From assembly GCA_938010045.1 (NCBI GenBank), contig CALLFZ010000036.1, forward strand, positions 1-38,800: DNA of 38,800 nucleotides, given 5' to 3'. The position numbers and the translations under genes are program-made. Numbering within the stretch: position 1 is the stretch's first letter; every line of letters begins with the position of its first letter. The notes beneath the pieces were generated by a model. The model was not told the DNA's origin, ran no database searches, and was given only the letters and a program-made list of their open reading frames with translations. Shown in pieces: positions 22,018 through 35,669 of this stretch. This DNA is from an uncultured bacterium. Its GTDB lineage: Bacteria; Verrucomicrobiota; Kiritimatiellia; PWTM01.

Positions 22018-22307
22018 CAGAGCATCTCCTCGATCGGCAGCACGAAGGCGCGTACGCCCTCGCCGGGATAGAGTCTCGCGCGGAAGGCCTCGACCGCCGC
22101 CCGCAGTTCAGAGAGCTTCGGGTCCTCGACGACCGTGAAGATCATCACGGATTTGCCGGGGAAGATCGGCGTGCCCAGCCGGCGGCCGGTGGCGCCCTCC
22201 CCGATCACGCCGCGGAACTCCGAATAGGCGTGAATTTCGTGGCTCGCGATGAGGCGGCGCAGATCTTCCTCGCGGCCTTCCGGTCCAATCAGGACGAGCA
22301 TTTTCAT
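22017..22307 (-). CDS. Small PII-like protein
   Basis: A 96-residue protein that looks like a ferredoxin-fold PII/CutA-type trimeric regulator: MKMLVLIGPEGREEDLRRLI, a middle T-loop-like segment (EFRGVIGEGATGRRLGTP), then the strand SVMIFTVVEDPKLSEL. It lacks a clear nucleotide-binding signature of GlnB/GlnK, so I call it only PII-like. Small proteins of this kind (for example DUF3240) often follow heavy-metal RND pump genes. AGGAG lies eight bases before ATG 22307. The start overlaps the RND stop as ATGA, and the end overlaps DUF6132. Confidence 0.7.
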   Translation of the reverse strand: MKMLVLIGPEGREEDLRRLIASHEIHAYSEFRGVIGEGATGRRLGTPIFPGKSVMIFTVVEDPKLSELRAAVEAFRARLYPGEGVRAFVLPIEEML

Positions 22308-25300
22308 CGCTGTGTCTCCTGTTCGGGTGAATTCTCATGGCCGCGGACCAGCGCGTACGCGACTGGGATCACGACCAACGTGAAGAGCGTGGACACCAGC
22401 AGGCCGAACAGAAGCGCCCACGCCAACCCACTGAAAATGGGATCGAATGTAATCGGCCAGGCGCCGAGCAGCGTCGTGCCGGCCGTGAGGCCGATCGGTC
22501 GCATGCGCACCGCACCGGAGTCGAGAATCGCCTCGCGCAGCGGTGAGCCGCGCGCGACCGCGCTGCGGATGAAATCGATCAGCAGCACGCCATTGCGGAT
22601 CACGATGCCGCCGAGTGCGATCATGCCGATCATCGCAGTGGCCGTGAAGAAGACGGGGTTGTCGAACCCGCCGACCGGCCGCGCGACGAGGGCGTTGAGC
22701 AGCGTGAAGCCGGGCATGATGCCGATCAGCGTCATCGGAATCGCGAGCATTACGACGAGCGGCATCGAGTAGGAGCGGGTCTCGTAGACCAACAGCACAT
22801 AGATGGCCACCAGCGCGGCCGCGAACGCAATGCCGAGGTCGCGAAACACGTCGAGCGTGATCTTCCACTCGCCCTCGCCGCGCCAGACGACGTTGATGCC
22901 GTCGGGCAAGGGGTTGAGCCGCATATGCCGCTGGAGCGCGAGCACTGCGTAGGCGGGGCCGCGGCCGGCGACCTCGGCGGTGACGTAGACGACGCGCTCC
23001 TGGTTCTTGTGGTAGATCGCGGGCGGTGCGAGCGTCTCACGGAAGTGGCCGAGCTCACCGATGTGGACGAGTTGCCCCAGGCCGCCCTTCACCGGCACCG
23101 AGGCGAGCCGCGCGGGATCGGTGCGCAGTTCGCGGGGCAGCCGGAGCACAACCGGCCATTCGTTCTGCTCAGTCGGCTCGTGCAGCACGCCGACCGGCGC
23201 GCCGGACAGCGCCATTGCGAGCGTCTGCGCGATGGCCTCGGTGGAGACGCCGTTCAGCGCGGCCTTGTCGCGGTCCACCTCGAACACGAGCTGCGGGCGC
23301 GCGGCCTCGGTGGTGTCGTCCACATCCACGACGCCCGGCTCCTGTTCCATGCGCGCCCGCACGGTGCGCGCGGCGGCGATGAGGTCCTCGTAGCGGTGCT
23401 CGGGTCGGCCGTACACCTCGGCGACGAGCGTCGCGAGCACGGGGGGGCCGGGCGGAACTTCAACGAGCTGCAGCGTCGCGCCGGTGCGCCGCGCGATCTC
23501 GGCGAGCGCGGGCCGTAAACGGAGCGCGATCGAGTGGCTGTCGGCCGCGCGCTTCGTCCGGTGGAGCAGGTTGATGCGCACGTCAGCGAAGTGCGGCGCG
23601 CGGCGCAGGTAGTAGTGGCGCACGAGTCCGTTGAAATCCATCGGGGAGGCGTCGCCGACGATCGTCGTGAAGTCTCGCACCTCGGGCACTGTACGCAGGA
23701 GCTGTTCCACCTCGCGTGCGACGGCGTCGGTCGCCTCGAGCGTGGAGCCCTCGGGCAGGTCCACGACGACCTGCAGCTCGTTCTTGTTGTCGAACGGCAG
23801 CATTTTGAGCGGCACGATGCCCAGCGCCAGCGCCACGGAGCCGGCGAAGAGCACCGCCACGACGCCCAACAGCGCCCAGGCGCGCGGCCGCGAGTCGACG
23901 AAGGGGGCGACGATCCGACGATAGACTCGCCAGGTCGCGCCGGAGCGGTCCACGGCCGCCTCGTCTGGCCGCACGGGCGTGTGGCCGGCGAGCATCACCT
24001 TGGAGATCCATGGCGTGACGGTGGCAGCGACCAACAGCGAGGCGAGCATGGTCAGCGGCACGTTGAGCGCCATCGGGCGCATGTAGGGCCCCATCATGCC
24101 CGTGATAAAGAACATCGGTAGGAACGCGACGATGACCGAGAGCGTCGCGAGGGTCACCGGGGGCAGCACCTCGACCACGGCGGTCTGGATCGCGTCGTCG
24201 GGCGGCAAGCGACGCCGCTGGAGGTGGCGGTAGATGTTGTCGACCACCACGATCGGGTTGTCCACGAGCAAGCCGAGCGCGAGGATCAGCGCGAAGAGCG
24301 TCACACGATTGATCGTGTAGCCGGCCAGCAAGTTGACCAGCAGCGTCAGTGAATACGTGATCGGCACCGCGAGCGCGACGATCGCGCCGACGCGCCAGTT
24401 CATGCCCAGCGCGATCAGGCCGACCACGGCGATGATCGCTTGGCCCAGCGAGCGGACGAGGTCATTGACTTTATCGTTCGCGGTGGCGCCGTAGTCACGG
24501 GTGACGCGCACGCCGACGTCCTCGGGAATCAGTGAGCCGCGCAGCGACTCGACCGTGCGCTGGATGTCGCGCGAGACCCACACCGCGTTGCTGCCTTTGC
24601 GCTTCGCCACTGCGATGGTGACGGCGGGGTACTCGCGCCCGACGGGATGCGCGCCGTCGGCCGGACCGAATCCGATTCGCGAGTAGGCACGGGGCTCGTC
24701 CGGCCCGTCCACGACGTCCGCGACGTCGCGCAGGTACACCGGTCGGCCCGCGTGCACGCCGACCATGAGGTTGCGCACCTCCTCGGGCGAGCGCAGAAAC
24801 GGACCGACCTCGACCGGGATCTCGCGGTTCGCGCGCTGGATCGATCCGGCTTGCAGGTGGTGGTTCGAGACCTTCAGCGCGCCGGCGACCTCCAGCGGCG
24901 AGAGCTGGTGCGCGGCGAGCCGCTCCGGATCGAGCAGCACACGCACGACGCGCGGCTCCCCGCCGTGCAGCGTGATCCGCGCGCTGTTGTGCACGTGCTG
25001 CAGGTTCGCCGCGACTTCCTCCGCAAGCCGATAGAGGTCGTGGGTGTCGTAGCGCTCCGAATACAGCGCGATCGAGACGATGGGGACGTCGTCAATCTCA
25101 ATGGGCTTCACGACCCAGCCTGCGATACCGGGTGTCGTGCGGTCGATGTTCTGGAAGATTTTGTTGTAGAGCTTGATCAGGCTGTCCTCGCGGTCCTCGC
25201 CGACGTGAAACCGGACGGTCACCACTGCCTGGCCCGGCATGGACACCGAGTAGACATACTCGACCCCGTCGATCTGATAGAGCAGCCGCTCGAGACGCGA

Positions 25301-25513
25301 GGCCACGCGCCGTTCGATCTCCTCCGCGCTGCCGCCGGGATAGGAGATCAGCACGTCGGCGAGGGGCACGACGATCTGCGGCTCCTCCTCGCGCGGGGTG
25401 GCCAGCAGCGCGACGATGCCCGCGGCGAGGCTGATCACGATCAGCAACGCCGAGAGGTGGCCCTGCAGAAAGCTGCGGACCAGGCCGGATCCGCGTTCGC
25501 CGTTCGACGCCAT
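22304..25513 (-). CDS. RND efflux transporter permease
   Basis: A 1069-residue AcrB/CusA-superfamily pump with the usual 12 membrane helices and two large periplasmic loops. The first helix is near residue 20, and TM2 begins around 355. Proton-relay helix TM4 reads LALGLLVDNPIVVVDN: Asp418 is kept, but the second Asp of the usual VDD is Asn419. On TM10 the usual Lys is Arg973 (GGIVIRNGVLLIDF). It lacks the Met cluster that would mark a Cu/Ag pump, so cargo is open. With the adaptor and TolC genes just upstream it would form a tripartite envelope pump. GGGAGGG precedes ATG 25513, which lies 3 bp after the adaptor stop. Confidence 0.95.
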   Translation of the reverse strand: MASNGERGSGLVRSFLQGHLSALLIVISLAAGIVALLATPREEEPQIVVPLADVLISYPGGSAEEIERRVASRLERLLYQIDGVEYVYSVSMPGQAVVTVRFHVGEDREDSLIKLYNKIFQNIDRTTPGIAGWVVKPIEIDDVPIVSIALYSERYDTHDLYRLAEEVAANLQHVHNSARITLHGGEPRVVRVLLDPERLAAHQLSPLEVAGALKVSNHHLQAGSIQRANREIPVEVGPFLRSPEEVRNLMVGVHAGRPVYLRDVADVVDGPDEPRAYSRIGFGPADGAHPVGREYPAVTIAVAKRKGSNAVWVSRDIQRTVESLRGSLIPEDVGVRVTRDYGATANDKVNDLVRSLGQAIIAVVGLIALGMNWRVGAIVALAVPITYSLTLLVNLLAGYTINRVTLFALILALGLLVDNPIVVVDNIYRHLQRRRLPPDDAIQTAVVEVLPPVTLATLSVIVAFLPMFFITGMMGPYMRPMALNVPLTMLASLLVAATVTPWISKVMLAGHTPVRPDEAAVDRSGATWRVYRRIVAPFVDSRPRAWALLGVVAVLFAGSVALALGIVPLKMLPFDNKNELQVVVDLPEGSTLEATDAVAREVEQLLRTVPEVRDFTTIVGDASPMDFNGLVRHYYLRRAPHFADVRINLLHRTKRAADSHSIALRLRPALAEIARRTGATLQLVEVPPGPPVLATLVAEVYGRPEHRYEDLIAAARTVRARMEQEPGVVDVDDTTEAARPQLVFEVDRDKAALNGVSTEAIAQTLAMALSGAPVGVLHEPTEQNEWPVVLRLPRELRTDPARLASVPVKGGLGQLVHIGELGHFRETLAPPAIYHKNQERVVYVTAEVAGRGPAYAVLALQRHMRLNPLPDGINVVWRGEGEWKITLDVFRDLGIAFAAALVAIYVLLVYETRSYSMPLVVMLAIPMTLIGIMPGFTLLNALVARPVGGFDNPVFFTATAMIGMIALGGIVIRNGVLLIDFIRSAVARGSPLREAILDSGAVRMRPIGLTAGTTLLGAWPITFDPIFSGLAWALLFGLLVSTLFTLVVIPVAYALVRGHENSPEQETQR

Positions 25514-25516
25514 CGC

Positions 25517-26560
25517 TCAGCCCTCCCTGCGCGGGACAACGATCACATCGCCATGGTCGAGACCCGAGAGCACCTCGACCTGACCGTCGCGCCGGATGCC
25601 CGTGCGCACGAGCCGCCGCACGACGCGGCCTTCCCGTACCACCCGCACGTATTCGAGCTGGCCGACCTGCTCCACCGCCGCCGCGGGCACGCGGATGCGC
25701 TCGGCGGGTTCCGTCGGCACGATCAGCCGCGCGAACGCACCGGGCTTGAGCCCCTCCGGCTCGGCCAGCCGCACCTTCACGCGCTGCGTGCGCGAGGCGG
25801 GGTCAATTTCCGAGACGATCTCCGAAATTCGGCCGCGCCGGCACACGGCCGGCTGCGCGAACTCCACATCGAGCTCGTCGCCGACGGTGAGGCGCTCGGC
25901 CAGCCGCATCGGTACCGCAGCCTCGACGCGCATGCGGGTGGGGTCGTACACCGCCAGCAGCGGCATGCCAGGCGAGGCGAGATCGCCCGGTTCGACACGG
26001 CGGTCCGTCACCACGCCGTCCATCGGCGCGACGATCCGCGTGTACGAAAGCATCACGCGGGCGCGCTCGAGCTGCGCGCGTGCTCCTTCGCGCGCCGTCT
26101 CCGCAGCCAGCATCTGCTGCTCCGTCGCGGCCTTCGAGTCGAAGAGTGCCTTCGTGCGGCGCGCCTCCGCTTCGGCCTGCCGCAGCTGCGCTTCGGCCGC
26201 CGCGACCTGCTCGGCGATCTCGCGATCGTCGAGCCGGATCAGATCCTGGCCCTGCGTCACGACCGCGCCGGCGCCGACCAGCACTTCGCGTACGTGCGCG
26301 GGGATCTTCGCGCTGAGCGTGGCCTTCGTTTCCGATTCTACCGTCGCGGGCACCTCGACCCAGCCCGGCGCACGCACGCGCTCGACGCGCAGCGTCACCG
26401 CGCCGGTGGGCAGCGGTTCACCCGGCGCGACGGGCACGGTGCCCGGCGTGACCTTCTCACCGCAACCGCCCGCCGACCAGACCATCAGCGCGACAAGCCC
26501 GACGACGCCCAGCAGCGGTTTCCGCGCCGCTGTCAGTTTCGAGACGATGTTCGTAGTCAT
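25517..26560 (-). CDS. RND periplasmic adaptor (membrane fusion protein)
   Basis: A 347-residue HlyD/AcrA-type adaptor. ATG 26560 has GGGAGG eight bases upstream; the in-frame GTG at 26569 would overlap that site. The N-terminus has a hydrophobic segment, GVVGLVALMVWSAGGC, with a Cys that could be a weak lipid-attachment site. The lipoyl/barrel-sandwich halves flank a coiled-coil hairpin rich in Ala, Glu and Arg (about 110-165). The second half reads LSYTRIVAPMDGVVTDRRVE, and the beta-barrel and membrane-proximal domains follow (VEVLSGLDHGDVIVV). It joins the RND permease to the TolC-like channel. Confidence 0.94.
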   Translation of the reverse strand: MTTNIVSKLTAARKPLLGVVGLVALMVWSAGGCGEKVTPGTVPVAPGEPLPTGAVTLRVERVRAPGWVEVPATVESETKATLSAKIPAHVREVLVGAGAVVTQGQDLIRLDDREIAEQVAAAEAQLRQAEAEARRTKALFDSKAATEQQMLAAETAREGARAQLERARVMLSYTRIVAPMDGVVTDRRVEPGDLASPGMPLLAVYDPTRMRVEAAVPMRLAERLTVGDELDVEFAQPAVCRRGRISEIVSEIDPASRTQRVKVRLAEPEGLKPGAFARLIVPTEPAERIRVPAAAVEQVGQLEYVRVVREGRVVRRLVRTGIRRDGQVEVLSGLDHGDVIVVPRREG

Positions 26561-26598
26561 GTGATCCACCTCCCGATGGTTCCGGGTCCGACGACCCT

Positions 26599-27939
26599 TT
26601 ATCGTGGCGACGTGGCCCCGTCATACGCGATGGCGAGCCGGCCACGCGCACGCTCGACGTTCGCGAGCGCAGTGTGATGGTCGTACAGCGCCGCGACCCG
26701 CCGGCTCCGAATCGAGGCCTGCGCGACCTCTGCGTTCAGCAGCTCGGAGAGATCCGCCGCGCCCTGCTCGTACCGCGCGCGCGTGATGCGCAGCGCCTCG
26801 TCCGCGGCGGCCTCCGCCTGCGCGATGACGTGCCGCCGCTCGGCCGCCTCGCGCGCGCGGATCACGGCCTGCCGCAAGTCGAGCCGGAGCTGATCGAGCG
26901 TGCGGCGCGCCTCCGCTTCGGCCGCGCGGACCTCCGCGGCCGCCTCCTCCACGGCGCCGCGCCGCCGGAATCCGTCGAACAGATCCAGCTCCGCGACCAC
27001 ACCCGCCAGGTAGCTTTGCTCGAACCCCGAAATGTCCTCGCTATCCCAGTCGCTCGAAGCGAACGCGCTGATCACGGGGCGGTACTCGGCGCGGGCGCGA
27101 CGGGCGGCGGACCGGCGCGCCTCGACCGCGGCGGCGGCTGCGCGCGCAGCCGGGTGGTCGTCGAGCGGCCAATCGTCGCGCAGGTCCACGACCGGTGCGG
27201 GTGGCGTCGCTGCGCCCGGCGGGGGCAGCGCGTCCGGGGTGGCCAGGTCGCGGCCGATCGCGGTGTTCAGGGCCGCGACGGCCAACTGTACGGCGTTTTG
27301 CGCGCGCACGAGGTCCTCGCGCGCCTCGCTCAGGCGCACTTCGATCGAGAGCACATCCCCACGGATCGCGGCGCCGCGCGCCTCGCGCTCGCGGGCGATG
27401 CGCAGGCTCTCCTCCAGCGAGGCGACTTGCGCCGCCTGCACATGTTCGAACTCGCGCGCCTGCAGGGCGCCATACCAGGCGCGCGTGACTTCGTAGGCGA
27501 GCTGGTTTCGAACAGCCTCGGCCATCGCTTCACGAGCCTGGGCCATCGCGGCCGCAGCCTCGACGCCCGCTTCGCGTCGGCCGAAGTCGAGCAGCCGCCA
27601 CTTGAGCCCCACCGAGAGGCGCGTGTTCGCGGTGTCGTCGGGGTTGTTGGGATCGAACGAGGGGCTGCGCATATCGAGCGCGCGCTGGTTCAGGCTCATC
27701 ATGAACGCCTGCGGAGGGTTATCGGTGCGCGCATATTGCGCGGACACGCCGATCATCGGCCACGCGGCCGAGCGCGCCTGCCGCAGTGCGGCGCGCGCGG
27801 CCGCGATTCGCTCCTCCGCGGCCGCCGCATCGGGATTCCGCTCGAGCGCCGCGCGCACGACCGCCTCAAGCGTCAGCGGTTCCGACCTCGCGCTCGAGGT
27901 CGCCAGCAGCGCAACCATCCACCAGGCTCGTGTGGTCAT
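26599..27939 (-). CDS. TolC-family outer-membrane efflux protein
   Basis: A 446-residue TolC/OEP protein with a signal peptide (MTTRAWWMVALLATSSARS) and two long helical repeats. The N-terminal repeat starts LTLEAVVRAALERNPDAAAA, and the second reads WPLDDHPAARAAAAAVEARR. It includes the beta-barrel strand pair (VGLKWRLLDFGRREAG, LAGVVAELDLFDGFRRRG). ATG 27939 has GGGAGG six bases upstream and overlaps the arsR stop as ATGA. A longer in-frame reading to 28257 would overlap nearly all of arsR and is rejected. Confidence 0.94.
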   Translation of the reverse strand: MTTRAWWMVALLATSSARSEPLTLEAVVRAALERNPDAAAAEERIAAARAALRQARSAAWPMIGVSAQYARTDNPPQAFMMSLNQRALDMRSPSFDPNNPDDTANTRLSVGLKWRLLDFGRREAGVEAAAAMAQAREAMAEAVRNQLAYEVTRAWYGALQAREFEHVQAAQVASLEESLRIAREREARGAAIRGDVLSIEVRLSEAREDLVRAQNAVQLAVAALNTAIGRDLATPDALPPPGAATPPAPVVDLRDDWPLDDHPAARAAAAAVEARRSAARRARAEYRPVISAFASSDWDSEDISGFEQSYLAGVVAELDLFDGFRRRGAVEEAAAEVRAAEAEARRTLDQLRLDLRQAVIRAREAAERRHVIAQAEAAADEALRITRARYEQGAADLSELLNAEVAQASIRSRRVAALYDHHTALANVERARGRLAIAYDGATSPR

Positions 27940-28274
27940 CGTGGACCTCCCTTCGCAAGTTCGTTCCCCGCACAACAAACACAGCGCACGAGTTTCCGAA
28001 TCCGGGCGTCGCCGAGCCGATAGCGGACCGAGCGCCCCCTCCGCGCCGCCACCACCGCGCCGGCCCGGCGAAGATGATTCAGGTGCTGCGAGGTCGCCGA
28101 CGGCGCCTCGCCGACCGCCTGCGCGAGCTCGCCCACCGAAACACCGCCGCGCTCGGATAAGAGCTCGAGCAGCTTCAGTCGAACCGGGTGCGCGACCACC
28201 CGGAGCAAATCCGCGACCCGCTCGAGCGTCTCCGCCGGCAGGCCGCCGCAGGACCATGTCCGATTGCGAATCAT
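27936..28274 (-). CDS. ArsR-family repressor with C-terminal Cys cluster
   Basis: A 112-residue winged-helix repressor. The DNA-binding core is VSVGELAQAVGEAPSATSQH and on (45-74), preceded by VVAHPVRLKLLELLSERGG and followed by the wing RGRSVRYRLGD. Candidate inducer-binding residues are Cys98, Cys100 and Cys101 (RCVCC), together with Cys9 near the N-terminus. The classical alpha-3 CVC of ArsR and the alpha-5 sites of SmtB are not obvious. ArsR proteins release DNA on metal or thiol-oxidant binding. It is first in the operon and probably represses it through the inverted repeat in its own promoter. The start codon lies where transcription should begin. Confidence 0.92.
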   Translation of the reverse strand: MIRNRTWSCGGLPAETLERVADLLRVVAHPVRLKLLELLSERGGVSVGELAQAVGEAPSATSQHLNHLRRAGAVVAARRGRSVRYRLGDARIRKLVRCVCCAGNELAKGGPR

Positions 28275-30144: not shown

Positions 30145-33100
30145 TCACCATCCCCAGGCCGTATCGGCGTCGTCGTCGCCAGCGGCGGGGCCGAGCGCGG
30201 GGCGGACCGCCCACCGGCGGCCATCGGACTCTGCGACGACCGCGCCGGACTCGGTGGAGAACCACGCGTCGAGCCCCAATCGGTCCGCGATGATCTGGCG
30301 CGAGAGTTCGGCCAGCATTTCGCGCTGACGGGGCGAGGCGCCGGGCACGCCGGTCGAGCGGCCAAACTCGGCGACAACCGTGCGCGCACCCGTTCGTTCG
30401 AGCACGCTGAGCAGGCTTGCGGTCAATTCTTGTTCCGCGGCGGCGCGGTCGGAGGCGGCCAACGGCGGCGCGGCGTGATGCGGCGCGGTGATGAGGTCCG
30501 CGCGCGCGCGATCGGCGGCGGCGGCCAGCGCACCCAGCAGATCGCCGGGGAGCAGGTCGGAGGTCAGCAGCGCTGCCGCATCGCCGTGGACGATGCGCAG
30601 CACCACCGCAGCGGACTCCGGCGGCGCGTTGCGGGGCGGGCCGGCATGGACGATTTCGATTCGGAATTCGCCCTGGGGAGTCGGTTCGCGGAGGATCACA
30701 TCGCGCGGCTGCGCCGTCCGTGTTCGGACGGTCCAGCCGGCCCAACGGTTGAGCCATCCGCCCGCGCGCGGTTCGAGGGCGCGGGCGAGGGAGGGGCGCG
30801 GGTAACGGCCGGCGGTGCCGATGAGCGCGGCATGCATCTGCGCGGCGAGGGGTGAGTCAAGCGGCAGCGCGAACTGGGCGGCGAGCACATCGGGCGATGT
30901 GCGGGCGGGTTCGAGATTCGCGAGCGCGGGCGGCCGCCAGACTTCGCCGACCCACAGGTGGTCGAGCAGCCAGCCCGCGCCGCCGGCGCGCTCGGGCCGG
31001 GGTGAGGTGAGCACGAGCGCGTCGATCCGGCGAATACCGCGTGCGGAGAGGAAGGGCAAAACGGTGCGGACGGCCTCGTTGCGCCAGGGGCGGTCGGGAT
31101 CGGCCGGCGCGGCGTCGACGAGGACGCGGCGGCCGCCGGGCGTTTCGATGAGGGTCGCCCCTCCGTAGCCGACGGAGAGGAACGTCAGCCGCGGCGCGGC
31201 GGGCGGTCGGGGACGGAGGTCGGCCGCCGCCAGCAGCGCGAGCGCGAGCGCGGCGCCGGCCAGAAGCGGACCGATCGCCCGCGGGCGCGCGCGCAGCGCA
31301 GGAATATGGCGCTCGCACCAAGCGCGGATCGGCCGCCGCCCTGCGGCGAGCGCGCACAGTCCGTACCAGGCTGCAAGCGTCAGAGCGCCCGGCCGACGCA
31401 CGAACGGATACGGGCACGTCGCGGCCGCGATGTGGCCGAGCACCAGAAACAGGGTCGACGCCAGCCAGTTCGCTGCGCCGAGCACGAGCGAGATCCACGG
31501 GCCGATCACAGGCGCGAGCCCCACCAGGCCGCCGATCGCCCCCAGCTGCACGATCACGCCGATCAGCGGGATCGCGATCAGGTTGGCCCACGCACCCGCG
31601 AGCGGCCAGCGCGCGAAGTAATAGGCCGATAACGGAATCATCATGCCGAGCTGGATCGCGCCCTGCGCGGCGATGAACGTCAGCAGCGGCGCGGGCAGCC
31701 GCGTGAGCGCGAACCCGGCGGGGCCGCGCACGCCGCGCCGCTCCAGGACCACGCCGGCGCGCCACACGGCCGCGCCGAACGCGAGGGCGGGCAGCCAGAA
31801 CTGCGGCGTCGTCACCAGCGGCCAGCGCACGATTGCCGCAACTGTCGCTGGCACGATCCAAGCGAGCACCGCCGCCAATCGAGGTCCGCGCAGTGTTTCG
31901 AGCCATTCGAGCACCGGCGGCGTGAGCCATCCGAGGGACAGGATCGCACCGAAGGAAAGCGTGAACGAGGGATCCGTGAGCACGAGTGGGTTGTGCGCGA
32001 GGATCAGCGCGGCGGCCACTGGCGCGCCGAGCAGCACCGAGGCGCGCAGACCCGCCTGGAGGTAGGCCCAGCTCAGCAGCATGAGTCCATTCATGATCAC
32101 CGCGCGCAATGTCGAGGGCCGGGCACCGGTCACGATCGCGAACACGACGAGCGCGGCGAGGATCAGCGGCGTGTACACCTGCCGCGGCAGCCGGATCGCG
32201 GCGAAGAGGCCGATGAACATGACTGTGAGGATCGTCACGTGCAGACCCGAGACCGCGAGCACGTGGCTGATGCCCGCCGCGCGGAATTCGTCCGAGACAA
32301 ACTCCGGACAGCCGCCGAACGGGCCGGGCGCCTGCAACAGGCAGGGGACGTTCTGTAGGCCGTAGCGCAAGCCGAGCGTGACCGCGCCGACGAAGGCGGA
32401 GGCTGGAAACGGCACGGTCTCCTTGATGACGCGGGTGAGGCGGTCGCGCAGATCGAGCGAGAACGCCACCCACGCGGAGCGATACGGTGCACGGTCCTCG
32501 CCGCCGGCCGGCAGCAGCCGCACCGGCACGGCACCCGCGCGCGCCTCAGGAAACATCAGCGCGTGCACGCCCCCCGCGCGCAAGTGCCGCCGCGGATCGA
32601 ACCCGCCCGGGTTCGCTGCGCCGCTGGGCAACTGAAGCACGCCGGTGACCTCGACCAGCCGGCCGTAGGCGGCGCTCGAGGCCAACCAGCTGTAGTCGGG
32701 CATCTCCGGGCGCACGGTGACGTGGACGAGACCGCCCTCGACGCGCATCCACGTGCCGCCGGCTGGCCACTCGATGAACTGCGGCGAGATCGGCAGCACC
32801 GTCTTGAAGTCGTAGACAATCGGATCCCCGCTGATGCGGCCGATGAGCCGCAACGGCGCCTGCCGTGGTCCGGGTCGGGCAAACGAGGCCACATGGTTGG
32901 GCGGGCGGAGCACCGTGAAGCGGGCTGGCCCGACGCCGCGCACGACTTCGACCGCCGTCACGCGCGAAAACGGTGTGGCGAGCGACCATGTCGCGCCCGG
33001 GCGTTCGCCGGGGCCCACCACGACGGCGTCGCTCGTGACCGCCACCGTGCCGCGCAGCGTCCACCAGCGGCCGCGCCGGTCGGCCAACGGGCGTCCCTCT

Positions 33101-33534
33101 GGATTCCGCTCGGGCACGCGCAGATTCAATTCGCCGATCAGGCGCAGTTCGAGGTGGTCCGGCGGGGACGATTCCAGCCGCAGCCGCGGCCGGCCGGCAT
33201 CCTCATCGGGCTTGATCTCGAGCGCGGTCCGCCCATCCGCCGTGATCTCGATCCGGCCCCATGGCCGGTCCGGGGCGGCGATGGCGATCCGGTGCCGGGT
33301 CCAACCCGTCGCCAGTCCGAACAGCGCGGCGGCCAGGACGATCCGGTTGCGCTGCGTGTCGCCACCCGCGCGGTGGGCCGCCGCCGCGGCGATCAAGGCC
33401 GCAAGGCCGAGAACCGCCGCCGGAAGGATGGATGCCCATCCGGACCCGGCGGGCACAGCGGAGGACACCGCGATGCCCGCGACCACCGCGGTGCAGCCCG
33501 CGATGGTGGCCGCTCTAACGACCATCGGTCGCAT
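30145..33534 (-). CDS. comEC: ComEC/Rec2-type DNA channel protein with degenerate beta-lactamase-like domain
   Basis: A 1129-residue protein, longer than the usual 700-850. An N-terminal membrane helix pair and an extended DUF4131-like region end in NPGGFDPRRHLRAGG (308-322). The competence domain carries the hallmark HVLAVSGLHV (424-433) and about ten membrane helices. The C-terminal metallo-beta-lactamase-like domain begins at 783. Where active homologues read LDVGQGDA and SHPHADHIGG, this one reads LSVGYGGA and TSPRPERAGG (843-852), so the metal ligands are lost; only the late PHH (1018-1020) remains. ComEC imports single-stranded DNA in transformation. Here the channel may be kept while the nuclease is dead. 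ATG 33534 overlaps the preceding small gene by 20 bases. Confidence 0.9.
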   Translation of the reverse strand: MRPMVVRAATIAGCTAVVAGIAVSSAVPAGSGWASILPAAVLGLAALIAAAAAHRAGGDTQRNRIVLAAALFGLATGWTRHRIAIAAPDRPWGRIEITADGRTALEIKPDEDAGRPRLRLESSPPDHLELRLIGELNLRVPERNPEGRPLADRRGRWWTLRGTVAVTSDAVVVGPGERPGATWSLATPFSRVTAVEVVRGVGPARFTVLRPPNHVASFARPGPRQAPLRLIGRISGDPIVYDFKTVLPISPQFIEWPAGGTWMRVEGGLVHVTVRPEMPDYSWLASSAAYGRLVEVTGVLQLPSGAANPGGFDPRRHLRAGGVHALMFPEARAGAVPVRLLPAGGEDRAPYRSAWVAFSLDLRDRLTRVIKETVPFPASAFVGAVTLGLRYGLQNVPCLLQAPGPFGGCPEFVSDEFRAAGISHVLAVSGLHVTILTVMFIGLFAAIRLPRQVYTPLILAALVVFAIVTGARPSTLRAVIMNGLMLLSWAYLQAGLRASVLLGAPVAAALILAHNPLVLTDPSFTLSFGAILSLGWLTPPVLEWLETLRGPRLAAVLAWIVPATVAAIVRWPLVTTPQFWLPALAFGAAVWRAGVVLERRGVRGPAGFALTRLPAPLLTFIAAQGAIQLGMMIPLSAYYFARWPLAGAWANLIAIPLIGVIVQLGAIGGLVGLAPVIGPWISLVLGAANWLASTLFLVLGHIAAATCPYPFVRRPGALTLAAWYGLCALAAGRRPIRAWCERHIPALRARPRAIGPLLAGAALALALLAAADLRPRPPAAPRLTFLSVGYGGATLIETPGGRRVLVDAAPADPDRPWRNEAVRTVLPFLSARGIRRIDALVLTSPRPERAGGAGWLLDHLWVGEVWRPPALANLEPARTSPDVLAAQFALPLDSPLAAQMHAALIGTAGRYPRPSLARALEPRAGGWLNRWAGWTVRTRTAQPRDVILREPTPQGEFRIEIVHAGPPRNAPPESAAVVLRIVHGDAAALLTSDLLPGDLLGALAAAADRARADLITAPHHAAPPLAASDRAAAEQELTASLLSVLERTGARTVVAEFGRSTGVPGASPRQREMLAELSRQIIADRLGLDAWFSTESGAVVAESDGRRWAVRPALGPAAGDDDADTAWGW

Positions 33535-33715
33535 CCGCCGTGCCGATGCCCGGGTAATAGCGCGAATTCGAGCGCCAGATCGGGGACTCGTCCGGCCGTC
33601 CGCGCCAGCGCGCTACGACCGCGCCGCGGTACTCCGGCCGGATCACGAGCACCGCCAGCCCGACGGCCAGCGCCCCCAGCAAAATGACCACAAACCGCAC
33701 CGCGCCCGAGTCCAT
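33515..33715 (-). CDS. Small single-pass membrane protein
   Basis: A 66-residue protein with one membrane helix (about 6-25, VRFVVILLGALAVGLAVLVI) and a short polar tail containing PIWRSNSRYYPGIG. GGGAGG lies seven bases before ATG 33715. Its end overlaps the comEC start by 20 bases, so it may be coupled to comEC translation. No family is recognised. Confidence 0.65.
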   Translation of the reverse strand: MDSGAVRFVVILLGALAVGLAVLVIRPEYRGAVVARWRGRPDESPIWRSNSRYYPGIGTADATDGR

Positions 33716-33718
33716 ACC

Positions 33719-33928
33719 TCAGCCTCCCGGACCCGCCGCGCCGCCACTGCCGCCGCTCGCGGTCAAACCCGCATACACGAATAGGAAGGCAAGGCACGGC
33801 AGCAGTTCAATGGCGCCCTCGGGATCAAAAAAAATGCGCCGGCTGCGGCCCGCAAGCCAAACGACGTAGAGCGCGAAGCCGGCGGTATTGATCGCGAACA
33901 CCCATCGCCTCGCGGCCGCCGTGCGCAT
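33719..33928 (-). CDS. Small two-helix membrane protein
   Basis: A 69-residue protein with helices at about 8-26 (RWVFAINTAGFALYVVWLAG) and 40-56 (IELLPCLAFLFVYAGL) and a Gly/Ala-rich tail. ATG 33928 has GGAGG seven bases upstream and overlaps the NERD gene stop as TGATG; a longer in-frame start at 34015 would lie inside that gene. No family is recognised. Confidence 0.65.
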   Translation of the reverse strand: MRTAAARRWVFAINTAGFALYVVWLAGRSRRIFFDPEGAIELLPCLAFLFVYAGLTASGGSGGAAGPGG

Positions 33929-34686
33929 CACATCGCCTCCCGGATTCTCTCGATTACGCGCTCTACTTCCTCGGGACCGAGCACGGGCGGCTCGGCGAGG
34001 CGGGCGGCCCACCATTGAGGCAGATCATCGGCCCGGACCAACGGCAGCGGCGCGTCCGACTCGATGAAGAGGCGGACATCCGACGGCGAGAACACCACGA
34101 GCGAGTCCACCGGCACGTGGCCAAGACCGCCGCGCACGAGCCACTCGCGCACCACCGCGATGTGCCGTTCATTTTGCCGGAGCGGACTGTCGAGCCGGCG
34201 GGGCGGGCGGCCCGGGCGCGTCTGCTTCCAGATTGGATCGCCGGCGCCACCGCTCAGCGTCCCGCCCCAGTTCTTCGTCTCGATCACCACGACGCCGTGG
34301 GGGCCGACGACGAGGTGGTCGAGCTGGGCGCGGCGCAGGCCGCTTCGAACGGTCAGATCGTTGAACACGGCATGCCGATCATCGAGCTCGGCGAGCCGGT
34401 CGGCGACGCGCCGCTCGCCGCCGCGTCCGGCGAAGAGCATCCGGCCTTCTGCGGCGTCCTGCCGGCTCTTCCAGTGGTGGCCGACGGCGAGCACCGCAGC
34501 CACGGCCGACGCCGCGAGCCACGGCGCGGCGCGGCCGCTCTGCGCGGCGACGATGGCCGCACCGGCCAGGCCGCCGACGGCCACGGCCGCCTCCAGCGGC
34601 ACTAGCCGCTTCAGCCAGTGCGCCTCGCGGCGCACGAGGTCGCGGCGGTCCGTGAGCGAACGCTCGGTGGAGAGGACACGCGCCAT
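33928..34686 (-). CDS. NERD (nuclease-related domain) membrane protein
   Basis: A 252-residue protein. Two membrane helices lie at about 30-72. The NERD domain follows: GGERRVADRLAELDDRHAVF, then LRRAQLDHLVVGPHGVVVIE with ETKNWGG, then a conserved RQNERHIAVVREWL. The Glu (GGE), Asp (QLDH), Glu-x-Lys (ETK) and Gln (RQN) residues match the proposed restriction-endonuclease-like catalytic core. NERD proteins are thought to act in DNA processing; biochemical data are few. It lies 3 bp after the TRAM gene and is upstream of comEC in the same operon, which suggests a DNA-related role at the membrane. Confidence 0.88.
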   Translation of the reverse strand: MARVLSTERSLTDRRDLVRREAHWLKRLVPLEAAVAVGGLAGAAIVAAQSGRAAPWLAASAVAAVLAVGHHWKSRQDAAEGRMLFAGRGGERRVADRLAELDDRHAVFNDLTVRSGLRRAQLDHLVVGPHGVVVIETKNWGGTLSGGAGDPIWKQTRPGRPPRRLDSPLRQNERHIAVVREWLVRGGLGHVPVDSLVVFSPSDVRLFIESDAPLPLVRADDLPQWWAARLAEPPVLGPEEVERVIERIREAM

Positions 34687-34689
34687 GGA

Positions 34690-35598
34690 TCAGGGCGCGT
34701 CGGCGACGCGTTCGCCCCGCGCGTGCCGCTCGCGCACTTCGACGATCCGGACGCGGAGCGTCTCGCCCGTCGGTGCGCCCGGCACGATCACCGGAAACCC
34801 ACGGATGCGCGCGACGCCCTCACGATCTGGCGCCCGGTATGCGCGTTCCGTGATTGTGACCTCATGCACATCCCCGACGCGCAGCGGCCGGTCCGTCGCG
34901 ACCGGAGCGGATCCCGAATGTGCCGCCGAAGCATCCTCAGGCGAGCCATCCGCCGCCGGCAGTTTTTCCACGAGGCGCCCGGTGGCAAACCGTTCCCTGC
35001 GGCGCACGACCTCGAACACAATCCGTTCGCCCGCCGTCGCGCCGGGGATGTACACCGGAATGCCGTCGAGCGTCACGCGGCCATCGCCGTGGCTGCCCAC
35101 CCCCTCCACCACTGCGGTGTGTAGAACAGTGACCGGCGGTTGAGGCGTGGAAGCCTGCGCCAGCCGGATGTCCGAGGCGGATGAGGACGGTTCCGGCGGT
35201 CCGAGCGGTACTGCTTCGACGACGGTGCCGCGCATCGCGGTCACCTCCACCGTGCGGATCTCGCCCGGGCGCGCTCCGGCGACGAACGTCACGAGTCCTC
35301 CGATCCGCGCCACTCCGTCCGCCTGCTTCCGCGCCGGCTCCTCGATATGTACGCGGTAACGTCCGCCGACCCGGGCGGGCGCCGTCGGATGCGCCATCGC
35401 ATCGAGCGTTGTGCCGAAGTTGGGGTTCAGCGCGGCAATCTCCTCCGGGGCAAGTGTACGCCGGACAACCTCCGGCACCTCCGGCCGCGCGCCCCAGGCC
35501 AGGCGGATCGCCGCGGCCGCGGCCGCGATCGAAACGGTGAACAGCAGCCAAATTGGAGGGGTGGTTCGTCTGCCGGTCGAGGACAGGCCGTTCTTCAT
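34690..35598 (-). CDS. Membrane-anchored protein with three tandem TRAM domains
   Basis: A 302-residue protein. One membrane helix (15-35) is followed by three TRAM-like beta-barrels at about 77-132, 156-213 and 240-300. Each carries the family pattern of GxGxAxI-G-hxVhVxGAxxGE: DGVARIGGLVTFVAGARPGE, DGRVTLDGIPVYIPGATAGE and EGVARIRGFPVIVPGAPTGE. TRAM binds RNA or nucleic acid and is normally a single domain on tRNA-modifying enzymes such as MiaB and RumA. No catalytic domain is present here. ATG 35598 has AGGAG eight bases upstream; the longer in-frame reading to 35868 has no support. It is first in the TRAM-NERD-ComEC operon. Confidence 0.85.
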   Translation of the reverse strand: MKNGLSSTGRRTTPPIWLLFTVSIAAAAAAIRLAWGARPEVPEVVRRTLAPEEIAALNPNFGTTLDAMAHPTAPARVGGRYRVHIEEPARKQADGVARIGGLVTFVAGARPGEIRTVEVTAMRGTVVEAVPLGPPEPSSSASDIRLAQASTPQPPVTVLHTAVVEGVGSHGDGRVTLDGIPVYIPGATAGERIVFEVVRRRERFATGRLVEKLPAADGSPEDASAAHSGSAPVATDRPLRVGDVHEVTITERAYRAPDREGVARIRGFPVIVPGAPTGETLRVRIVEVRERHARGERVADAP

Positions 35599-35640: not shown

Positions 35641-35669
35641 AATAAACCAGCGTTCGGCGGGCGTGGCAA
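35641..35669 (-). promoter_or_regulatory. Promoter of the TRAM-NERD-ComEC operon
   Basis: On the minus strand TTGCCA (35664-35669), a 17-base spacer and TTTATT (35641-35646), about 40 bases before the start codon. The -35 matches five of six consensus positions and the -10 four. Confidence 0.55.

Follow-up and report, generated by a model that had tools for sequence, protein, structure and literature searches.

A conserved operon of Kiritimatiellia that joins a second ComEC without nuclease motif to membrane-anchored TRAM and NERD proteins: a possible DNA-import module

Introduction

Why should a ComEC-family protein be encoded together with repeated TRAM domains, a NERD nuclease domain and two tiny membrane proteins? 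This question is raised by an operon at positions 30145-35598 on the minus strand of a 38,800-nt stretch of contig CALLFZ010000036.1 (assembly GCA_938010045.1) from a member of the Kiritimatiellia, and this whole stretch is in the following called the window. The initial annotation had inferred a role in DNA uptake or in the handling of incoming nucleic acid, and it had overlooked that the ComEC of the window is a divergent second ComEC, here termed ComEC2, with a dead nuclease site. In the literature outside most subscription journals and preprints, we found nothing relevant on ComEC in Kiritimatiellia or on NERD or TRAM proteins in combination with ComEC.

Results

The genes are arranged on the minus strand in the order TRAM-NERD-smA-smB-ComEC2, and the intergenic gaps in this direction are +3, -1, +3 and -20 bp, in full agreement with the initial description of five genes on one strand that are at most 3 bp apart or overlap. 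Shine-Dalgarno-like sites are present 5' of TRAM, smA and smB; NERD and ComEC2 have none, and their translation would rely on coupling. The assignment of all five products to the membrane also stands, as hydropathy supports membrane segments in TRAM, NERD, smA and smB, and ComEC2 is modeled as a multi-helix protein, and Pfam confirms the three proteins with nucleic-acid-linked domains (TRAM, NERD, and Competence/DUF4131). The promoter that had been proposed at 35641-35669 had to be given up: a consensus scan detected no sigma-70 promoter at this position or elsewhere in the region, and another type of promoter is possible. In the window, the operon is surrounded by genes of metabolism and efflux. 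Past the downstream region, at 22304-28257, follows a tripartite efflux operon that encodes an outer membrane factor, an HlyD-type fusion protein and an AcrB-type pump.

The five genes belong together as a conserved unit, and their order is kept far beyond chance. The initial annotation had staked its reading on the presence of the TRAM gene and the small genes near comEC in relatives, and indeed 17 fetched genomes from six families of the class have TRAM, NERD, smA and smB next to ComEC2 in the order seen in the window, at alignment identities of about 30-50%, and further named Kiritimatiellia loci keep the five-gene order. No conservation of the flanking genes was detected among the fetched regions, and they were therefore ruled out as members of the unit. 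A contig scan with the single TRAM protein recovered no relatives, but a whole-genome search and the ComEC2 alignment did, and when 77 relatives were searched for TRAM, nearly all strong matches shared their contig with a ComEC gene. Among 116 genomes of the class, ComEC2 (counted as strong full-length or long matches) was present in 29, TRAM in 27 and this type of NERD in 26; all three occurred together in 26 genomes, so that 26 of the 29 genomes with ComEC2 have a TRAM orthologue, while ComEC2 was found without the other two in three genomes, TRAM in one, and this NERD in none. The Fisher p for co-occurrence is about 2e-21 or less, a value that ignores kinship, and as the genomes are related, the independent events are fewer than counted. 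A stronger argument for a functional unit is the co-retention of unlinked genes: in family f26, smB-ComEC2 is found on one contig and TRAM and NERD on another, where a second NERD often accompanies them; in one genome (G007), TRAM-smA-smB-ComEC2 are kept together, and NERD lies by itself on another contig.

ComEC2 (30145-33534, minus strand, 1129 aa) consists of N-terminal helices, a beta-rich region with a DUF4131/OB fold, the Competence channel domain and a C-terminal beta-lactamase-like domain without the catalytic motif. The Competence domain (PF03772; E 1.1e-34, 120.5 bits versus a cut-off of 23) and DUF4131 (E 2.6e-11, 43.9 bits versus 31.6) are clearly recognized by Pfam, whereas Lactamase_B remains sub-threshold (E 0.005). 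The same domains in the same order, including the beta-lactamase-like fold, are found in the ComEC/Rec2 proteins of Bacillus subtilis and Moorella glycerini (9ic4, 30bt), but ComEC2 has a longer N-terminus, stays below the cut-off of the ComEC/Rec2 equivalog TIGR00361 in NCBIfam (89.3 versus 190 bits), has all four HxDxDH residues replaced, and is a second copy in its genome, encoded in an own operon with smA, smB, NERD and TRAM. In the AlphaFold2 model of ComEC2 (pLDDT 89.4, pTM 0.89), the C-terminal domain superimposes on Moorella ComEC 9ic4 with a Z-score of 27.6 and an rmsd of 2.7 A over 261 residues, and the beta-lactamase fold is thus intact. Alignment to 9ic4 and 30bt places S844-P-R846-P-E848-R849 (30988-31005, minus strand) at the position of the ComEC ligands H598, D600, D602 and H603; T-S-P-x-P-E-R or a close variant is the usual reading at this site in Kiritimatiellia ComEC2, and the HxHxDH nuclease motif is present in 0 of the 63 examined members of the clade. 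As the ligands are replaced while the fold is retained, ComEC2 is predicted to have lost its nuclease chemistry. For most of these metal ligands, mutation in ComEC from M. glycerini impairs or abolishes the activity (PMC12455585), and the same loss of chemistry with a retained fold has been proposed for ComEC of Streptococcus pneumoniae (PMC8579336).

A ComEC match was obtained in all 25 genomes searched, and nearly all of these have a shorter canonical-type ComEC of about 800-900 aa in addition to the long TRAM-adjacent one; some families have a third ComEC of about 940 aa. One bacterial class thus carries two or three ComEC paralogues, as compared to a single ComEC-type protein in 96% of surveyed bacterial genomes (PMC6299819). 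The third paralogue of families f7 and f8 (L090-L095, e.g. L093:3110-5908) has hardly recognizable C-terminal beta-lactamase motifs. The genome of the window also has another ComEC elsewhere (L096:1338-3848, contig C6 of G000), and the nuclease motif of this protein is partly degraded (VLDANH), whereas genome G029 is an example in which a motif is kept. In a maximum-likelihood tree, the canonical-type paralogue (C1) of the same genomes is split from all others with full support; because of long branches, the tree was relied on only for this separation of C1 from the rest. ComEC2 (C2) appears to belong to a divergent clade that extends across several phyla, and in the tree C3 may fall inside C2. 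Three records labeled Chlamydiae or unnamed (L120, L121, L123) contribute a ComEC2 group, and smA and smB are present in L120 and L121, which are short contigs.

RNA binding is the main known role of TRAM domains. The TRAM protein of the operon (34690-35598, minus strand, 302 aa) has an N-terminal membrane anchor (residues 16-36), followed by three TRAM beta-barrels at residues about 80-131, 159-213 and 244-297 that are predicted to be periplasmic. Pfam recognizes three stretches of PF01938 (E 1.1e-21, 76.8 bits versus a cut-off of 21), AlphaFold2 models the three barrels confidently (pLDDT about 95), Foldseek matches the model to the archaeal TRAM proteins 1yvc and 1yez, and the best NCBIfam match is the archaeal PyTRAM chaperone (NF053605; 88.6 versus a cut-off of 85). 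The number of recognized TRAM stretches per protein differs between species and ranges from two to four, and in one relative (L065:7601-8677) tandem, nearly identical copies of one repeat within the gene reveal a recent internal duplication. TRAM domains without an enzyme had initially been regarded as unusual, which cannot be maintained as such, since archaea have stand-alone TRAM proteins (PMC6705878); what is unusual here is the membrane anchoring and the repetition. The archaeal PyTRAM and TRAM0076 likewise have TRAM domains without an enzyme, but these are small soluble single-domain RNA chaperones, whereas the TRAM protein of the operon carries two to four or more repeats on a membrane anchor. 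In its membrane anchor, its small repeated nucleic-acid-binding modules and its location in the same operon as ComEC, the protein resembles ComEA, and it may work like ComEA. It is nevertheless not a member of the ComEA family: Pfam detects TRAM matches only and no helix-hairpin-helix (PF12836), and DNA binding by the TRAM beta-barrels is putative.

The NERD protein (33928-34686, minus strand, 252 aa) begins with a two-helix membrane hairpin (residues about 30-48 and 54-70), which is followed by the NERD nuclease domain (PF08378; E 8.3e-27, 94.3 bits versus a cut-off of 22.1). In Pfam, NERD is the match of the operon nuclease, with none to EndA-type or other nuclease families; solved structures gave no match to the NERD profile. 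Conserved alignment columns together with a by-eye check of the sequence identify D123, E136 and K138 (motif D-x12-E-x-K; codons within 34273-34320, minus strand) as the predicted catalytic residues. E90, D123, E136 and K138 are kept across the relatives, the only exceptions being additional NERD copies in L084 and L086, and the NERD of the Kiritimatiellia operon is apparently active. In these two loci (L084:6894-8443, L086:4991-6573), NERD is duplicated in tandem downstream of TRAM, with one copy lacking the ExK (DTL or HTL instead) and the other one keeping it, which suggests that the ExK-less copy might be an inactive partner subunit. The mean hydropathy of the NERD family peaks twice, around residues 31-45 and 56-66, and positive charge precedes the first of these peaks and follows the second one. 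Such positive charge on both outer sides of the hairpin points to an N-in/C-in topology, in which the NERD domain probably faces the cytosol.

The two remaining genes encode tiny membrane proteins outside any known family, without meaningful match in Pfam or NCBIfam. SmA (33719-33928, minus strand, 69 aa) is a two-helix protein in which the loop and the second helix are conserved (EGVLYLLPCLPFFFVY-like), and homologues were found in the same position in 18 fetched operons and in 34 loci of named genomes. SmB (33515-33715, minus strand, 66 aa) has a single helix and the motif P-D-Y-R ... S-N-x-x-Y-Y-P, with G19 and N50 being invariant. Besides Kiritimatiellia, smB is common to several phyla, as it is also encoded directly upstream of ComEC in records of Riflebacteria, CSSED10-310, Methylomirabilota and Mcinerneyibacteriota. 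In loci of the f26 type (L125:5695-6573, L124:5872-6750, L134:2531-3433), a gene for a cation-efflux (CDF) transporter is located between smA and smB.

In Riflebacteria/Ozemobacteria, CSSED10-310 and a Methylomirabilis record, smB directly precedes a motif-dead ComEC of the same clade, and where examined, this pair is followed by ComEA (HHH_3, E 2e-31 to 5e-44) and then by a separate membrane-anchored metallo-beta-lactamase-type protein (MBL) with an intact HxHxDH motif; ComEA also follows ComEC in the Hydrogenedentota locus L152. No smA was detected in the smB-ComEC-ComEA-MBL loci. The dead-motif ComEC and the upstream smB are thus shared with the operon of the window, but the neighbors differ: the KIRITIMATIELLIA partners of ComEC2 are TRAM and NERD, and not ComEA and a stand-alone MBL with intact motif. 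In the Riflebacteria MBL, positive charge precedes the single helix and little or none follows it, which predicts a periplasmic location of the MBL. Downstream of such ComEC-ComEA-MBL loci, a PD-(D/E)xK nuclease (L154) and DHH-family proteins (L154, L157) are encoded (L154:7635-10427, L157:11182-12603), and these are possible further DNA-processing partners.

A search of 16 Kiritimatiellia genomes for relatives of the Riflebacteria MBL gave matches inside ComEC frames only, and none of them was a stand-alone protein. Pfam matches gave no convincing ComEA-type HhH protein in the genome of the window, only one weak partial match, and the HHH_3 matches in Kiritimatiellia that were read are no ComEA candidates, being nucleases with HhH (L191, L192) or long HhH-containing proteins (L189, L193). 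In the former (L191:1492-2391, L192:724-1695), a thermonuclease-like region is joined to a helix-hairpin-helix domain, and these proteins are possibly secreted or periplasmic nucleases. DprA and several PilB/PilT-like ATPases are encoded in the genome of the window.

Discussion

As the same ComEC clade together with smB adjoins ComEA and an intact MBL in other phyla, a DNA-uptake context is supported. These outgroup loci are the best evidence that the ComEC2 clade may serve DNA uptake, and that its nuclease would be able to work in trans. The initial inference of DNA uptake is thereby upheld in part, namely with regard to the uptake context, for which DprA and the PilB/PilT-like ATPases also speak. 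We give an even chance to the reading of the operon as a module dedicated to DNA import, with a divergent second ComEC at its core. In such a module, type IV pili would bring DNA into the periplasm, where the membrane-anchored TRAM repeats would bind it and thereby do the job of ComEA. The OB domain of ComEC2 and its dead beta-lactamase cap could then take over the DNA and direct it to the channel, with smA and smB as small structural subunits of this channel, and the NERD nuclease, probably positioned at the cytosolic mouth, would trim or cut the incoming DNA. Strand separation on the outside is not accounted for by the operon and may be achieved by displacement or by another nuclease. We infer the substrate, the sidedness, the formation of a complex and the order of events in this model. 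The more detailed proposal, a ComEC-type importer in which receptor and nuclease are both exchanged, with TRAM for ComEA, the dead cap as a guide, NERD at the cytosolic face and two tiny subunits, is put forward tentatively and would have about one chance in three. Arguments against this model are that TRAM domains are chiefly known for binding RNA, and that nearly every genome checked has another ComEC, which may be the main transformation channel.

How else could the operon be understood? The most direct idea would be that NERD replaces the lost extracellular nuclease and degrades the non-transforming strand in the periplasm, like EndA of S. pneumoniae. There, this membrane nuclease acts beside an apparently inactive beta-lactamase domain of ComEC (PMC8579336, PMC12455585), and a comparable exchange would fit the facts that the ComEC2 clade is always motif-dead, that the intact MBL next door in Riflebacteria has its counterpart in NERD in Kiritimatiellia, and that the search of the 16 genomes returned no stand-alone MBL of the Riflebacteria type. 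EndA, however, is of a different nuclease family and acts outside, whereas NERD is PD-(D/E)xK-like and predicted inside, and for the S. pneumoniae system neither TRAM nor small subunits are recorded. The charge around the two hydrophobic peaks predicts a cytosolic NERD, but the Riflebacteria MBL is predicted to be periplasmic, and a cytosolic NERD cannot simply stand in for an extracellular beta-lactamase nuclease. It is therefore improbable that NERD is an equivalent substitute for this MBL, and we have demoted the idea to an unlikely one because of the predicted topology. The predicted cytosolic side would equally suit a gatekeeper or defense module, in which a channel-associated NERD destroys incoming or phage DNA instead of aiding transformation, and NERD domains do occur in defense proteins. 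The matches to the defense models PglW and MAD6 are weak and confined to the NERD region, for which reason a classification as defense system was not adopted; the operon proteins as a whole are matched by no defense system model, the flanks are not conserved and in the window are metabolic and efflux genes, the genes are stably co-inherited across families and not patchily spread, and the outgroup context is ComEA and MBL, all of which makes defense very unlikely.

Import or handling of a nucleic acid other than DNA, for instance extracellular RNA, or the scavenging of DNA for nutrition would agree with the RNA binding of TRAM domains (PyTRAM match; PMC6705878) and with the second ComEC elsewhere that could serve transformation. 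Both the domain content of ComEC2 (DUF4131, Competence) and the outgroup loci with ComEA speak for DNA instead, and we regard this possibility as quite unlikely. Mere operon packing without any shared function is hardly credible: in a compact genome, genes may come to lie within a few bases of each other, but the order is kept over deep divergence between unconserved flanks, genes are retained together even when unlinked, and the co-occurrence counts contradict such an explanation.

Conclusions

The operon bears on the question how import channels without a working nuclease process incoming DNA. A large ComEC clade keeps a dead beta-lactamase domain, often together with smB, and is accompanied by two alternative partner sets, either ComEA and an intact MBL or TRAM and NERD, and these sets provide named genes and residues for testing. 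If the tentatively proposed importer with exchanged receptor and nuclease is real, it would add to the known routes by which imported DNA is processed, namely the built-in beta-lactamase domain and EndA.
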